Assembly: GCA_016744015.1 (NCBI GenBank)
Contig: JADGFD010000002.1
Span: 62,001 to 126,000, forward strand
DNA: 64,000 nucleotides
Source of the DNA: Paracoccaceae bacterium
GTDB taxonomy: Bacteria; Pseudomonadota; Alphaproteobacteria; Rhodobacterales; Rhodobacteraceae
Reading direction: 5' to 3'
Part shown: positions 4,116 through 10,245 of the stretch, piece by piece
Layout of the letters: each line of letters opens with the position of its first letter
Numbering within the stretch: the first letter of the stretch is position 1
The notes under the pieces: model-generated
Told to the model about the DNA's origin: nothing
The model's input: the letters and a program-made list of their open reading frames with translations, nothing else
Database searches by the model: none
Position numbers and translations under genes: made by a program

Positions 4116-4129
4116 TTGATCGAGATCAA
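4116..4129. promoter_or_regulatory. FNR box between hemN and fnrL
   Basis: TTGATCGAGATCAA matches the FNR consensus TTGAT-N4-ATCAA exactly and is nearly equidistant from the two divergent starts (35 and 36 bp). It could activate hemN and autoregulate fnrL. Confidence 0.9.
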
Positions 4130-4165: not shown

Positions 4166-4915
4166 ATGCCCCATTTGGTGCCAAAAATTGAAGCGAATAT
4201 GCGCTGTGGCGATTGCCCGATCCGCCGCCGTGCGATTTGCGCATATTGCGGGTCGTCTGAGTTGGATCAGCTAGATGACATCAAATCTTATAAAACCTAT
4301 CAAGCCGGTGAAACAATTGTGTGGGCCGGTGAGGAAATGCCGCTGATTGGCTCGGTGGTTTACGGGGTGGCGACACTTTCACGCAGCTTGGCTGATGGCC
4401 GTCGCCAAATGGTGGGGCTTTTGTTGCCGTCAGACTTTATTGGCAGGCCCGGGCGCAAGGTGGCACCCTATGATGTGGTGGCGGCAAACGATGTTATGGT
4501 GTGCCATTTCAGGGTTGATAAATTCAATAATCTAATAGACAGCACCCCCGCTCTTGAGCGCCGCTTGCTTGATATGACGATGGACGAGTTGGACTCCGCG
4601 CGAGAGTGGATGCTGCTCTTGGGGCGCAAGACTGCACGGGAAAAAATTGCAAGTATGCTTGTAATTTTTGCCCGTCGCGGCTCCGAGTTGAACCATGAGG
4701 AGCTCGGCGACGGGCTGCGCTTTGAGGTGCCGCTTACGCGGGAGGCGATGGCAGATTATCTGGGCCTAACGATCGAGACCGTCAGCCGCCAGTTTTCGGC
4801 GCTCAAAAAATCAGGCGTGATTATTATGGAAGACGCCCGCCATATCCGCGTGCCGGATTATGTGCGCTTGCTCGATGAAGCCTCGGATGATTCCGATGGT
4901 GGATTTATCAGTTAA
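4166..4915 (+). CDS. fnrL: FnrL, oxygen-sensing Crp/Fnr regulator
   Basis: Global regulator of low-oxygen genes, 249 aa, carrying an oxygen-labile [4Fe-4S] cluster. Candidate ligands are Cys14, Cys17, Cys25 and Cys28 at the N-terminus plus Cys113 in the beta-roll (VMVCHF). A cyclic-nucleotide-binding-like fold is followed by a helix-turn-helix with the recognition residues Glu204, Ser207 and Arg208 (ETVSR), the E-x-x-S-R code that reads TTGAT half-sites. The ATG at 4166 is preceded by AGGTAGG. An earlier in-frame start at 4106 would add residues not seen in FNR proteins. Four matching boxes lie nearby. Confidence 0.95.
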   Translation: MPHLVPKIEANMRCGDCPIRRRAICAYCGSSELDQLDDIKSYKTYQAGETIVWAGEEMPLIGSVVYGVATLSRSLADGRRQMVGLLLPSDFIGRPGRKVAPYDVVAANDVMVCHFRVDKFNNLIDSTPALERRLLDMTMDELDSAREWMLLLGRKTAREKIASMLVIFARRGSELNHEELGDGLRFEVPLTREAMADYLGLTIETVSRQFSALKKSGVIIMEDARHIRVPDYVRLLDEASDDSDGGFIS

Positions 4916-4938: not shown

Positions 4939-4952
4939 TTGACGTAGATCAA
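4939..4952 (+). promoter_or_regulatory. FNR box upstream of ccoN
   Basis: TTGACGTAGATCAA fits TTGAC-N4-ATCAA with one change from the palindromic consensus. It lies 84 bp before the ccoN start, as expected for FnrL activation of the cbb3 oxidase operon. Confidence 0.85.
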
Positions 4953-5036: not shown

Positions 5037-6644
5037 ATGCAACATACCATAAAGGCGGTTCTGCTAGGGGTCATTGTCCTCGCGGCAGCTTTCGCGACAA
5101 ATTTCGCGCGGGACCTGTCTTATCAGGTAAGTGCAATTGTTATCATTCTGTGGGCTGGATATTTGTTTATCCGCGAAATCGGCAAAATCGGCAATGCGCC
5201 GACGCCCGCCGAAACTGGCTATATGGACGGGGTTGTGCGCGCAGGCGTTATTGCCACGGTGTTCTGGGGCATCACAGGTTTTACCGTGGGGGTTTGGATC
5301 GCATTTCAGCTGGCTTTCCCAGTCTTAAACCTAAGCGAGCTTACTCATGGCTACCTCAATTTCGGCCGTTTGCGCCCGTTGCATACTTCTGCCGTGATCT
5401 TCGCCTTTGGCGGTAACGCCCTCATCGCCACCTCGTTTTATGTGGTGCAGCGCACCTCGGCGGCGCGGCTATTTGGCGGCAATCTGGCTTGGTTTGTGTT
5501 CTGGGGCTATCAGCTCTTTATCGTTTTGGCGGCCCTTAGCTATGTGCTGGGCGCGAGCCAAAGCCGTGAATATGCAGAGCCTGAGTGGTATATCGACCTG
5601 TGGCTAACCATCGTTTGGGTGGCTTACCTCATGGTATTTGCCGGTACGATTTATAAGCGCAAAGAGCCGCATATTTATGTGGCCAACTGGTTCTACCTTG
5701 CTTTCATCATCACCATCGCCATGTTGCATATTGTTAACAATATGGCCGTTCCAGTGTCGATCTTCGGTTCCAAGTCGGTGTCGCTGTTCTCGGGTGTGCA
5801 AGATGCGATGACCCAGTGGTGGTATGGCCACAATGCGGTTGGATTCTTCCTGACAGCGGGCTTCTTGGGCATGATGTATTACTTCGTGCCAAAGCAGGCG
5901 AACCGCCCTGTTTTCTCGTACAAGCTTTCCATCGTTCACTTCTGGGCGCTTATTTTCCTTTATATCTGGGCGGGCCCACACCATCTGCATTACACAGCGT
6001 TGCCTGACTGGGCGCAAACGCTGGGTATGGTGATGTCTATCATCCTCTGGATGCCTTCATGGGGCGGTATGATCAACGGTTTGATGACGCTCTCTGGCGC
6101 GTGGGATAAGCTCCGCACCGATGCGGTGCTGCGGATCATGGTTGTGTCTATTGCATTTTACGGCATGTCGACCTTTGAAGGGCCGATGATGGCGATTAAA
6201 GCGGTGAACTCGCTAAGCCACTATACAGACTGGACCATTGGTCACGTGCATTCCGGTGCTTTGGGCTGGAACGGGATGATCTCCTTTGGGGCGCTTTACT
6301 TCCTGGTGCCACGCCTGTGGTTCCGCAAAGGGCTCTACAGCATGAAGCTGGTTAACTACCACTTCTGGCTCGCCACCATTGGTATCGTGCTTTACGCCTC
6401 TGCCATGTGGGTTTCGGGGATTATGGAAGGCCTGATGTGGCGCGAAGTTGACGCGCAGGGCTTCCTCGTGAACGCCTTCTCGGACACGGTTGTGGCCAAA
6501 TATTCGCTTCTGGTCATTCGCGGCGTGGGTGGCTTGTTCTACCTCACCGGTGCACTGATCATGGCATATAACCTTCGGATGACGATGATCGGGGCTGGCG
6601 ATGCAACGTCAAAAGAAGCCACGACCGCCGTGCCAGCTGAATAG
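5037..6644 (+). CDS. ccoN: cbb3-type cytochrome c oxidase subunit I
   Basis: Catalytic subunit of the high-affinity cbb3 oxidase, reducing O2 to water and pumping protons across the inner membrane. 535 aa with about twelve or more membrane spans. Conserved histidines for heme b, heme b3 and CuB are visible in [36 protein letters not shown] and [13 protein letters not shown]. The ATG at 5037 follows GAGGG. It is the first gene of ccoNOQP and is preceded by an FNR box. Confidence 0.97.
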
Positions 6645-6654
6645 GAAAGAGACA

Positions 6655-7386
6655 ATGGCATTACTAGATAAACACGGCGTTATTGAACGCAACGCAACCC
6701 TCCTGATGGTGCTCTCCCTGATTGTGGTGAGCATCGGCGGACTGGTGCAAATTGTGCCGCTTTTCTTCCTGGAAAACACCATCGAGGACGTAGAGGGCAT
6801 GCGCCCCTACACCCCGCTGGAGCTGGCCGGACGCGATATCTATATCGCCGAGGGCTGCTATGTGTGCCACAGCCAAATGATCCGGCCCATGCGCGACGAA
6901 GTTGAGCGTTATGGCCACTATTCATTGGCTGCCGAAAGCCAGTATGACCACCCGTTCCAGTGGGGCTCCAAGCGCACGGGGCCTGATTTGGCCCGCGTGG
7001 GTGGTCGCTACTCTGACGAGTGGCACGTTGACCACCTGACAGACCCACGCTCGGTTGTGCCAGAGTCGATCATGCCGGAATATGGCTACCTCCTACATAC
7101 GCCGCTGAACATTGACTATCCTGAGGACCGCTTGGTTGCGGACGCCATCGTAGGTGTGCCTTACACTGAAGCTATGATCGCTTCAGCCAAGGAAGACCTG
7201 CTGGCCCAGCTTGACCCTTACAGTGATGGCATTGACAATCTTTACGCCGGTTATGGCGAAAAGGTTGTGGCCCGTAATTTTGATGGCCAAGACGAGCTAA
7301 CCCAGATGGATGCGCTGGTGGCTTATCTGCAAGTGCTGGGCACAATGGTTGATTTCTCAACCTTTGAACCCGTCGCAAACCGCTAG
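6655..7386 (+). CDS. ccoO: cbb3 oxidase subunit II, mono-heme cytochrome c
   Basis: Membrane-anchored c-type cytochrome passing electrons from CcoP to CcoN. 243 aa, with an N-terminal transmembrane helix (about residues 15-38) and a heme c site Cys68-Tyr-Val-Cys71-His72. The ATG at 6655 with AGGAAAGAG upstream starts [13 protein letters not shown], which matches the family; the frame is open further upstream into ccoN. It begins 10 nt after ccoN. Confidence 0.97.
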
Positions 7387-7392
7387 GAGGGG

Positions 7393-7575
7393 ATGATGTA
7401 TACATTTCTGAGAGAGCTCGCTGATAGCTGGGTCATGCTCATAATGCTGGCCACCTTTATCGGCATCGCTATCTTTGCTTTTCGCCCGGGAACCAAAGAA
7501 TCCTATGACCGGCTGCGTAACTTGCCGCTGCAAGATGATGACGTCTTGGTTGAAGACAAGTCAGGAGAGAAATAA
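7393..7575 (+). CDS. ccoQ: cbb3 oxidase small subunit IV
   Basis: Small single-span membrane protein, 60 aa, that stabilises the cbb3 complex. A hydrophobic helix at about residues 13-30 is followed by a charged tail (FRPGTKESYDRLRNLPLQDD) typical of CcoQ/FixQ. AGGAGGGG precedes the start; ATG codons at 7393 and 7396 are both possible. The stop overlaps the ccoP start by one base (TAATG), indicating translational coupling. Confidence 0.93.
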   Translation: MMYTFLRELADSWVMLIMLATFIGIAIFAFRPGTKESYDRLRNLPLQDDDVLVEDKSGEK

Positions 7576-8444
7576 TGGCTAAAACACCTGCAAAAAAAGA
7601 AGAAGTCGGCACCACAGGCCATGAATGGGACGGGATCGAAGAGTATAACAATCCGTTGCCGCGCTGGTGGCTTTGGACAACCTACGCAACCATCATCTGG
7701 GGCATTGCCTATATGATCGCCTATCCGGCTATTCCGCTTCCGGGTGGGGCTACGCCGGGCGTGCTTGGCTATTCATCCCGTGGTGAAGTGGCGGCGGATA
7801 TCGCTGCGATTGAAGAGATGAATGCGCCGCTTGTGGCGCGGATCAATGAATTGGAGCTCACAGAAATCGCTACTGACGATCTTGTTGGCGGTGAGGCTGA
7901 TGGCTTTGCCTATAATGGTGGGAAGGCCGTTTTCCAAACTTTCTGCGCCCAGTGCCATGGTGCGGGTGCCGGCGGTTTTGTTGGCTACCCAAGCCTGACA
8001 GACGATGACTGGCTTTGGGGTGGCACGATTGAAGACATCCATACCACCATCAGCTACGGCATTCGCCATGAAACAAACCTCGATACTCGCATTTCCGAAA
8101 TGCCGGCCTTTGGCGAATTCCTCAGCAAAGAGGAAATTGCTGACATCGTTGAGTATGTCGGCTCGCTTTCCGGCATTAACGAGGCCGTGGCGACAGAAGA
8201 GAACGAAATGCTGTTCCTTGATAACTGCGCCGCCTGCCACGCCGATGACGGCACCGGTGACCGCTTTGCCGGTGCACCAAACCTGACAGACTTTATCTGG
8301 CTTTATGGGGATAGCCCGGAAACGCTGATCGAAACGGTGACGTATTCGCGCGCGGGCGTTATGCCCGCATGGGAAGGTCGCTTGTCAGAAAGCCAAATTC
8401 GCCAAGCAGCGGTTTATATCCACTCCCTCGGGGGCGGTGAATAA
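7575..8444 (+). CDS. ccoP: cbb3 oxidase subunit III, di-heme cytochrome c
   Basis: Accepts electrons from soluble or bound cytochrome c and feeds CcoO. 289 aa, with one transmembrane helix at about residues 31-52 and two heme c sites, Cys124-Ala-Gln-Cys127-His128 and Cys218-Ala-Ala-Cys221-His222. The sixth-ligand methionines are plausible in SEMPAF and VMPAW. It is the last gene of the operon and is followed by a strong terminator at 8468-8498. Confidence 0.97.
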   Translation: MAKTPAKKEEVGTTGHEWDGIEEYNNPLPRWWLWTTYATIIWGIAYMIAYPAIPLPGGATPGVLGYSSRGEVAADIAAIEEMNAPLVARINELELTEIATDDLVGGEADGFAYNGGKAVFQTFCAQCHGAGAGGFVGYPSLTDDDWLWGGTIEDIHTTISYGIRHETNLDTRISEMPAFGEFLSKEEIADIVEYVGSLSGINEAVATEENEMLFLDNCAACHADDGTGDRFAGAPNLTDFIWLYGDSPETLIETVTYSRAGVMPAWEGRLSESQIRQAAVYIHSLGGGE

Positions 8445-8467
8445 AAGCGCCGTTCACAATGGTTTTG

Positions 8468-8498
8468 AAAGGCCCGGCAAATTTGCCGGGCCTTTTTT
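8468..8498 (+). terminator. Terminator of ccoNOQP
   Basis: A perfect palindromic stem (AAAGGCCCGGCAAA with its complement, 8468-8495) ends in a run of T. It separates the oxidase operon from the small RNA unit downstream. Confidence 0.9.
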
Positions 8499-8515: not shown

Positions 8516-8557
8516 TTGATATGGGTCAATTCAATCACTTCGAATCAGCGTTATACA
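8516..8557 (+). promoter_or_regulatory. FNR-dependent class II promoter of a small RNA
   Basis: An FNR box TTGATATGGGTCAA (8516-8529, one mismatch in the right half) is followed by a -10-like TATACA at 8552-8557. The box centre (8522.5) lies 41.5 nt before the start predicted from that -10 (8564), which is the standard position for FNR class II activation. No protein gene starts before the terminator at 8661-8694, and ccoG has its own box. Confidence 0.7.
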
Positions 8558-8563
8558 AAATTT

Positions 8564-8694
8564 GCGAAGCCAAGATTGTTAGGTTCTAACGTTTTGACTT
8601 TTGATGTGAGGCCCTTGCCTCACCTCACTCCCCTCGCGCCTAAATAGGCGCAACCTTTATGCCTGATCACCTCCGTGTGATCAGGCTTTTTTTT
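8564..8694 (+). ncRNA. Candidate FnrL-activated small RNA, about 131 nt
   Basis: Predicted transcript between the ccoP and ccoG genes. Four hairpins follow one another: GTTAG/CTAAC (8578-8590), GTGAGGC/GCCTCAC (8606-8623), GCGCCT/AGGCGC (8636-8651) and the terminator stem (8661-8686). Between hairpins two and three lies an unpaired C/U-rich stretch CTCACTCCCCTC (8624-8635), and the terminator loop is CTCCGT; both could pair with purine-rich ribosome binding sites. A short open frame crosses the region but has no ribosome site and no recognisable product. By position and control it is an analogue, not a proven homologue, of the E. coli anaerobic regulator FnrS. Confidence 0.65.
8661..8694 (+). 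terminator. Terminator of the FNR-linked small RNA
   Basis: A perfect 10-bp stem GCCTGATCAC/GTGATCAGGC with a 6-nt loop is followed by eight T. This second strong terminator lies only 163 bp after the ccoP terminator with no gene between, which is itself evidence for an extra transcript. Confidence 0.9.
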
Positions 8695-8720: not shown

Positions 8721-8734
8721 TTGATCGAGATCAA
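8721..8734 (+). promoter_or_regulatory. FNR box upstream of ccoG
   Basis: TTGATCGAGATCAA is identical to the hemN/fnrL box and to the consensus. It lies 80 bp before the ccoG start and probably activates ccoGHIS at low oxygen. Confidence 0.9.
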
Positions 8735-8814: not shown

Positions 8815-10245
8815 GTGAACGACGAATTACCTAAACCAGCCAGCTTGTATGCTGCGCGCGAGCCGGTTTTCCCGAAAAAAGTAAAAGGCAAATTCCGCAA
8901 TCTTAAATGGTGGCTAATGGGCCTTATGCTTGGCGTCTACTATCTGTTGCCTTGGATTCGCTGGGACCGGGGTGCTAACCTTCCAGACCAAGCCGTGCTG
9001 CTGGATATGGCCAACCGCCGCTTTTTCTTTTTCTGGATAGAGATCTGGCCGCATGAGTTTTATTTTATTGCCGGGTTGCTGATTATGGCCGGGCTTGGGC
9101 TTTTCCTATTCACCTCGGCCTTGGGGCGTGTGTGGTGCGGCTATGCCTGCCCGCAAACGGTTTGGACAGATCTTTATATATTAGTAGAGCGCTGGATCGA
9201 GGGAGATCGAAACGCCCGTATTCGTTTGCTCAAGGCCAAGTGGGATGCGCGTAAAATCAGGCTGCGGCTTACCAAATGGTTTGTTTGGCTATTGATTGGC
9301 ATGGCCACCGGCGGGGCTTGGGTGTTTTACTTTGCGGATGCACCAACTTTGGCGCGTGATCTGGTCACGGGTGATGCCAGCTTAATGGCCTATGGCTTCA
9401 TCATTACCCTAACCGCCACCACCTTCTTTTTTGGTGGCATCGCACGTGAGCAAATCTGCATTTATGCCTGCCCGTGGCCGCGGATTCAGGCTGCGATGAT
9501 GGATGAAGAAACTCTTACCGTGGGCTATCGTGACTGGCGCGGAGAGCCGCGTGGCAAAGGCAAAAGCCGTGAGGGCGAAGAACCGCTCGGAGATTGCATT
9601 GACTGTATGGCCTGTGTCAACGTCTGCCCCACCGGCATTGATATCCGTGATGGCCAGCAGCTCGCCTGTATCACCTGCGCGCTCTGCATTGATGCCTGCG
9701 ATGATATCATGACCAAAATTGGCAAGCCCCGTGGCTTGATAGACTATCTCGCCGTTTCTGATTTTGAGCGGGAAAAGGCGGGCGAGCCGCCGCGCAAGCT
9801 TTGGAAGCACGTATTCCGCCTGCGCACCTTGATCTACACTTCGCTTTGGGGTGCCGTGGGCCTTGGCTTACTGGTGGCGTTATTTGTCCGCACCGACATT
9901 GGCCTTTCGGTTTCTCCTGTGCGCAACCCGACTTTTATTATGCTGTCTGATGGTTCGGTCCGTAATGCCTATGATGTGCGTTTGCGCAATATGAAAGGTG
10001 ATCACGTGGTGTTTAACATCACGGCCGAAGGGGCTGAAGGGTTAGTGCTCTCAATCGAGGGGCGCGAAGGCGCGGCCGTGGAGGCCAAAGCAGATGAGAC
10101 CACCAAAATCCGGCTTTATCTCACCAGCCCGCGTTCATCTGCGTTTGCGTCTGCGGAGTCATCTCCTGTGAGAATACGGATCGAAAATGACGAAACCGGA
10201 TCGGACGCTTTTGCCGACACCGTGTTTAACGGAAAGGAAAACTAG
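8815..10245 (+). CDS. ccoG: CcoG/FixG/RdxA ferredoxin-type cbb3 maturation protein
   Basis: Membrane iron-sulfur protein needed for cbb3 oxidase assembly, reported in this family to act in copper reduction. 476 aa. It has several membrane spans, NapH-like cysteine motifs CGYACPQTVW and CIYACPWPRIQ, two ferredoxin clusters (CIDCMACVNVCP and CITCALCIDAC) and a C-terminal Ig-like periplasmic domain. The GTG at 8815 is chosen because GGAG sits at 8805-8808; a TTG at 8803 lacks such a site. First gene of ccoGHIS. Confidence 0.95.
   Translation: MNDELPKPASLYAAREPVFPKKVKGKFRNLKWWLMGLMLGVYYLLPWIRWDRGANLPDQAVLLDMANRRFFFFWIEIWPHEFYFIAGLLIMAGLGLFLFTSALGRVWCGYACPQTVWTDLYILVERWIEGDRNARIRLLKAKWDARKIRLRLTKWFVWLLIGMATGGAWVFYFADAPTLARDLVTGDASLMAYGFIITLTATTFFFGGIAREQICIYACPWPRIQAAMMDEETLTVGYRDWRGEPRGKGKSREGEEPLGDCIDCMACVNVCPTGIDIRDGQQLACITCALCIDACDDIMTKIGKPRGLIDYLAVSDFEREKAGEPPRKLWKHVFRLRTLIYTSLWGAVGLGLLVALFVRTDIGLSVSPVRNPTFIMLSDGSVRNAYDVRLRNMKGDHVVFNITAEGAEGLVLSIEGREGAAVEAKADETTKIRLYLTSPRSSAFASAESSPVRIRIENDETGSDAFADTVFNGKEN

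Follow-up and report, generated by a model that had tools for sequence, protein, structure and literature searches.

A predicted FnrL-activated small RNA gene between ccoNOQP and ccoG, conserved within one genus of Rhodobacteraceae

Introduction

What occupies the gap between the ccoNOQP operon and ccoG in this Paracoccaceae genome? In the window (the whole 64-kb stretch of DNA analyzed), ccoNOQP spans positions 5037–8444, and the initial annotation had proposed a small RNA (sRNA) of the low-oxygen response in the gap behind it. We consider, with moderate confidence, that the gap holds a stand-alone ~131-nt sRNA gene activated by FnrL, whose product is probably Hfq-dependent and acts in trans through seed pairing with G-rich ribosome-binding sites. 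The genome encodes Hfq alongside FnrL. The RNA is probably a new oxygen-responsive regulatory RNA; it is conserved across the genus and was not detected in any other genus that was sampled. As an RNA family it is new, although of an already known kind, and its link to HRC-8-4, a hairpin at the same site in other genera, is the more surprising part.

Gene order and promoter of the sRNA

The features of the locus are as follows.

4187–4915, + strand: fnrL, gene of the presumed activator (NF045989 FnrL, 378.9 bits, cut-off 300)
7575–8444, + strand: ccoP, final gene of ccoNOQP and upstream neighbor (NCBIfam TIGR00782, 365.5 bits, cut-off 180)
8467–8496, + strand: intrinsic terminator closing ccoNOQP (13-bp stem and T-run)
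8516–8529, + strand: FNR/FnrL box of the sRNA promoter, TTGATATGGGTCAA, centered at −41.5
8552–8557, + strand: −10 element TATACA, 22 nt past the box
8564–8694, + strand: predicted small RNA, 131 nt, with a predicted start
8566–8601, + strand: hairpin 1 of the sRNA (fold and covariation)
8602–8627, + strand: hairpin 2, GUGAGGC/GCCUCAC, with compensatory changes (fold and covariation)
8624–8637, + strand: invariant 14-mer CUCACUCCCCUCGC
8628–8635, + strand: CUCCCCUC, unpaired core of the 14-mer and proposed pairing seed
8636–8651, + strand: hairpin 3, GCGCC/GGCGC (GCACC/GGUGC in congener G004; fold and covariation)
8661–8694, + strand: hairpin 4 (stem 8661–8686) and U8, forming the intrinsic terminator of the sRNA
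8721–8734, + strand: separate FNR box TTGATCGAGATCAA of the ccoG promoter
8815–10245, + strand: ccoG, downstream neighbor, with a likely GTG start at 8815 judged from the sequence (TIGR02745, 525.2 bits)

The sRNA unit lies between the ccoP terminator and the FNR box and promoter of ccoG. Curated models score well above their cut-offs for fnrL, ccoN, ccoO, ccoP, and ccoG. The FnrL gene that had been placed 4 kb away is an FnrL equivalog by its curated model and lies ~3.6 kb upstream.

Four FNR boxes were observed in the 64-kb window, against 0.23 expected. Apart from those of the sRNA and ccoG, these are found near the fnrL start, opposite hemN (4116–4129), and in front of ccoN (4939–4952). 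The center of the sRNA box (8522.5) and the predicted start (8564) are separated by 41.5 nt, so the coordinates agree with the box position and TATACA −10 element of the initial annotation. The spacing is the same among the congeners: in 11 of 11 copies, the center of a perfect TTGAY-N4-RTCAA box precedes the invariant octamer GCGAAGCC by exactly 41.5 nt, even where the upstream gene is other than ccoP. The conservation of the transcript starts exactly at this octamer. TATACA deviates from the −10 consensus, and a sequence scan of the sRNA promoter found no match to a −35 element. Both features fit an activator-dependent promoter, though they do not prove one. At low oxygen, FnrL would bind the box as a class II activator and turn on the sRNA at the same time as ccoNOQP and ccoGHIS, each of which is preceded by an FNR box of its own, and the transcript would end at its own terminator.

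Predicted structure of the sRNA

Folding of the predicted RNA gives exactly four hairpins (−51.6 kcal/mol, z = −7.06), as the initial annotation had described, and none of 200 shuffles folded as well. The C/U-rich stretch said to be unpaired is likewise recovered: CUCCCCUC has an unpaired probability of 0.99 in the window copy and 0.85–1.00 across all complete copies. The pairing probability of the terminator (hairpin 4), whose tip differs between members, is 1.00 in all 10 complete members. When the 11 copies were aligned, 99.2% of paired cells contained standard pairs and six pairs showed changes on both sides. Neither value was reached by any of 500 shuffles, and structures slid along the alignment paired at only 38–44%. 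The covariation is genuine but shallow, since G004 and G005, the two copies that diverge most, account for much of it. Both terminators reported to flank the gap are real (8467–8496, and 8661–8686 followed by U8), although simple terminator-like matches occur about as often as chance would give (2 found against 1.9 expected), and the case thus rests on comparison.

Conservation within the genus

A DNA search of 101 relatives recovered the region in 11 of 13 same-genus genomes and in no genome among the remaining 88. Within the genus, the sRNA gene is present wherever the site has been assembled (11 of 11), although, since all members come from one genus, these counts are not independent events. 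The site is missing from the other two assemblies, as G002 has no detectable ccoG and the contig of G009 ends inside ccoG. The sRNA is single-copy in its own genome. The conservation of box, hairpins, and terminator anticipated for related cco loci therefore holds within the genus (11 of 11 covered sites) but does not extend to the other Rhodobacteraceae sampled, in which this RNA was not found.

Identity among the congeners is 0.83 in the sRNA box against 0.45 in the adjacent spacer, 0.79 in the −10 element against 0.56 in the 6 nt before the start, and 0.82 in the transcript against 0.40–0.62 in flanks and spacers, with 0.96 in the seed region. Past the sRNA terminator it is 0.62, and it reaches 0.97 in the ccoG box and 0.46 in the ccoG leader. 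Sequence and comparison show the boundaries, promoter anatomy, and structure of the predicted gene, as well as selection on its putative seed.

The DNA upstream of the unit differs between congeners. G001 carries ~540 bp extra between the ccoP terminator and the sRNA box (L004 960–1500), a divergent pstS-like gene lies upstream of the sRNA in G006 and G011 (L009 and L006), and a different gene is found there in G010. The sRNA and ccoG remain together although the DNA between ccoP and the sRNA varies, and this linkage is kept in every member with an assembled 3′ flank. Since the unit is intact beside unrelated upstream sequence, it appears to be a self-contained gene and not the tail of ccoNOQP. 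The independent FnrL-driven sRNA gene of the initial annotation is thus well supported as a candidate by the conserved box, spacing, −10 element, RNA body, covariation, and terminator.

Search beyond the genus

The covariance model of the sRNA gave convincing scores only in congeners among 397 genomes of the family, in a search with strict first-look filters that a very divergent relative could escape. Matches outside the genus reached E values of only ~0.008–0.06, and the best four were dropped because they aligned mainly over the terminator. The exact 14-mer CUCACUCCCCUCGC occurred twice outside the genus in the 397 genomes; both matches were dropped, having neither an FNR box nor a covariance-model match. 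No Rfam family matched the sRNA at the gathering score. Permissive matches were sub-threshold, such as anti-hemB (24.5 bits, cut-off 49.5), and were judged to reflect a common terminator shape. The Rfam model of FnrS did not match the sRNA at E values up to 10, and the absence of a visible sequence relation to FnrS, claimed before, is borne out in Rfam. No report of this RNA was found in open-access text.

Alternative explanations

The strongest competing explanation is that the element serves ccoGHIS in cis as a riboswitch-like leader or attenuator; on a signal, RNA started at 8564 would then read through the 8661–8694 terminator into ccoG. It owes this rank to the retained linkage: wherever the 3′ flank is assembled, the congeners have the element in front of ccoG, even those with ccoP at another place, and an RNA working in trans would not require this arrangement. 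A switch of this kind has also been proposed for HRC-8-4, which occupies the same site (PMC8632094). We nevertheless consider a cis-acting leader unlikely, since ccoG owns a separate FNR box past the terminator that is even better conserved (0.97), and the terminator is predicted to form in 10 of 10 members (probability 1.00). There is no conserved antiterminator, as the 5′ arm of the terminator is otherwise paired at 0.12–0.51 with partners that differ between members, and blocking the terminator costs ~16 kcal/mol. Somewhat less probable is a short FnrL-driven RNA that acts without base-pairing to mRNAs, for instance as a protein-binding or sponge RNA. The three small conserved hairpins around an invariant C/U-rich single strand would provide a possible binding surface, and the searches for mRNA targets came up empty. 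However, nothing positive apart from the missing targets points to such a role, and the invariance is confined to the accessible C/U stretch, which is the usual mark of a pairing seed.

The two remaining explanations can be given little weight. Simple terminator matches at chance frequency would suit a chance promoter-like stretch between terminators, or a relic, with no functional RNA, but conservation from +1, the invariant seed, the exact spacing in 11 of 11 copies, and the covariation make this very improbable. Hardly credible is a small-protein gene or a dual-function RNA. The window copy contains a TTG-started frame of ~24 codons; however, indels of 1–3 nt between close relatives shift the frame and thus make a small-protein gene unlikely, the ATG of GATGTGA runs straight into a stop codon, and conservation tracks the stems and the single-stranded stretch.

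Proposed function and target search

For the trans-acting sRNA that we prefer, Hfq would probably bind the U-tail, and the single-stranded CUCCCCUC between hairpins 2 and 3 would pair with AGGGGA-type ribosome-binding sites. Such pairing would lower the translation of a set of mRNAs, and the sRNA may form a post-transcriptional arm of the low-oxygen response.

No conserved near-perfect target site for the sRNA was found in the congener genomes. A search for GAGGGGAG before ATG in 13 genomes yielded two recurring sites, the ribosome-binding site of the GTA_TIM gene and a coding stretch, which were set aside because something other than the sRNA probably explains their conservation. The complement of the 14-mer, with two mismatches allowed, occurred 19 times in the own genome against 20 for the control, showing no excess. 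AGGGGA before ATG is over-represented in the same genome (209 against 64 for the reversed control); an anti-SD-like seed would thus have many possible partners, and pairing is plausible but unspecific.

The GAGGGGAG site at L114 1501–1518 (G000:C22:270822-270839) fronts the GTA_TIM gene of a gene transfer agent. This site, which shows perfect complementarity to the sRNA seed and is retained in ~7 congeners, is probably an ordinary ribosome-binding site. The ccoQ start is preceded by AGGGGATGATG (window 7388–7398), a seed-complementary ribosome-binding site, and feedback on ccoNOQP is therefore conceivable.

Relation to known sRNAs

FNR-controlled sRNAs are well known in enterobacteria, as in the case of E. 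coli FnrS. The sRNA of the window resembles FnrS as a stand-alone sRNA under an FNR box for which anaerobic post-transcriptional repression is proposed, but differs from it in genome position, size, and seed. The RsaE/RoxS sRNAs of Firmicutes direct a C-rich single-stranded motif against G-rich ribosome-binding sites and are under the respiration-sensing regulator SrrAB/ResD. Our sRNA, compared with them by motif and regulation, would share the C-rich single strand aimed at G-rich ribosome-binding sites and the respiration-sensing control, whereas phylum and regulator differ. An FnrL-bound sRNA promoter in Rhodobacteraceae is an idea already published: the promoters of RSs0019 (Pos19) and RSs2461 in Rhodobacter sphaeroides have an FnrL ChIP-seq site (PMC4263372), and we compare them by description. 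On the same basis RSs0019 is set apart from the sRNA of the window, since it is located on chromosome 2 and not at cco (PMC4263372) and is a 219-nt RpoE-dependent coding RNA (PMC5036791). The present locus adds an FnrL-sRNA gene family that is supported by comparison, mapped exactly, and provided with a defined, directly deletable seed. It also allows the published HRC-8-4 motif to be interpreted in a new way that can be tested.

HRC-8-4 at the same site in other genera

Brewer et al. (2021, PMC8632094) describe HRC-8-4 as a set of 160 hairpins from Rhodobacterales, located between ccoNOQP and ccoGHIS, and speculate on a riboswitch. The sRNA of the window lies between the same operons, also in Rhodobacterales. 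However, HRC-8-4 is a single tall hairpin with the conserved tip CUGUUCGCGCGUUUCC, whereas the sRNA has four hairpins without this tip. Among the 80 ccoG loci that we examined, putative HRC-8-4 elements were recognized as a tall hairpin with the tip CTGTTCGCGCGTTTCC at the described place. Most other Rhodobacteraceae carry this unrelated hairpin in the ccoP–ccoG gap, as seen in cultured Ruegeria, Phaeobacter, Shimia, and Leisingera. In 12 of the 13 genomes of the genus, CTGTTCGCGCGTTTCC has no match within one mismatch, the lone match being one single-mismatch site in G004, and the cco region of the window has none with up to two mismatches. Since the genus essentially lacks the tip, we rejected the identity of the sRNA with HRC-8-4; place and promoter design are common to both, but the sequence is not.

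No FNR box occurs in the 320 bp upstream of 40 of 55 HRC-8-4 tips, nearly all of which lie ~50–90 nt past the ccoP stop. The other 15 each have an FNR box of their own that begins 89–166 nt upstream of the tip, an arrangement seen in none of 16,000 random 320-bp stretches of the same ccoG loci, a favorable control since these stretches are mostly coding. When the 15 loci are averaged, similarity to TATAAT is highest 22 nt past the box (2.8 of 6; mean 1.24, sd 0.33), and this offset equals that of the sRNA in the window. Given the box and the −10-like signal in 15 of 55 cases, what was published as a riboswitch candidate may often form the 3′ end of an sRNA driven by FnrL.

We tentatively suggest that the ccoP–ccoG gap of Rhodobacteraceae is a standing site for FnrL-dependent sRNAs, possibly filled by unrelated RNAs, the four-hairpin RNA here and HRC-8-4 elsewhere. 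HRC-8-4 RNAs would then either be transcribed from an FNR promoter of their own or be made as 3′ UTR of the ccoNOQP mRNA, which FnrL drives. If this is true, HRC-8-4 would be an oxygen-responsive sRNA and not a riboswitch, and RNAs would have been exchanged at this position while promoter logic and position were kept.

HRC-8-4 with its own FNR box is found upstream of ccoG in L016, L022, L023, L025, L030, L035, L036, L042, L051, L058, L060, L062, L065, L082, and L085. L046 carries two HRC-8-4 hairpins in tandem (2530–2636). In L085 (Shimia thalassica), hairpins are present at 688–703 and 2737–2752, one after ccoP and the second with its own FNR box.
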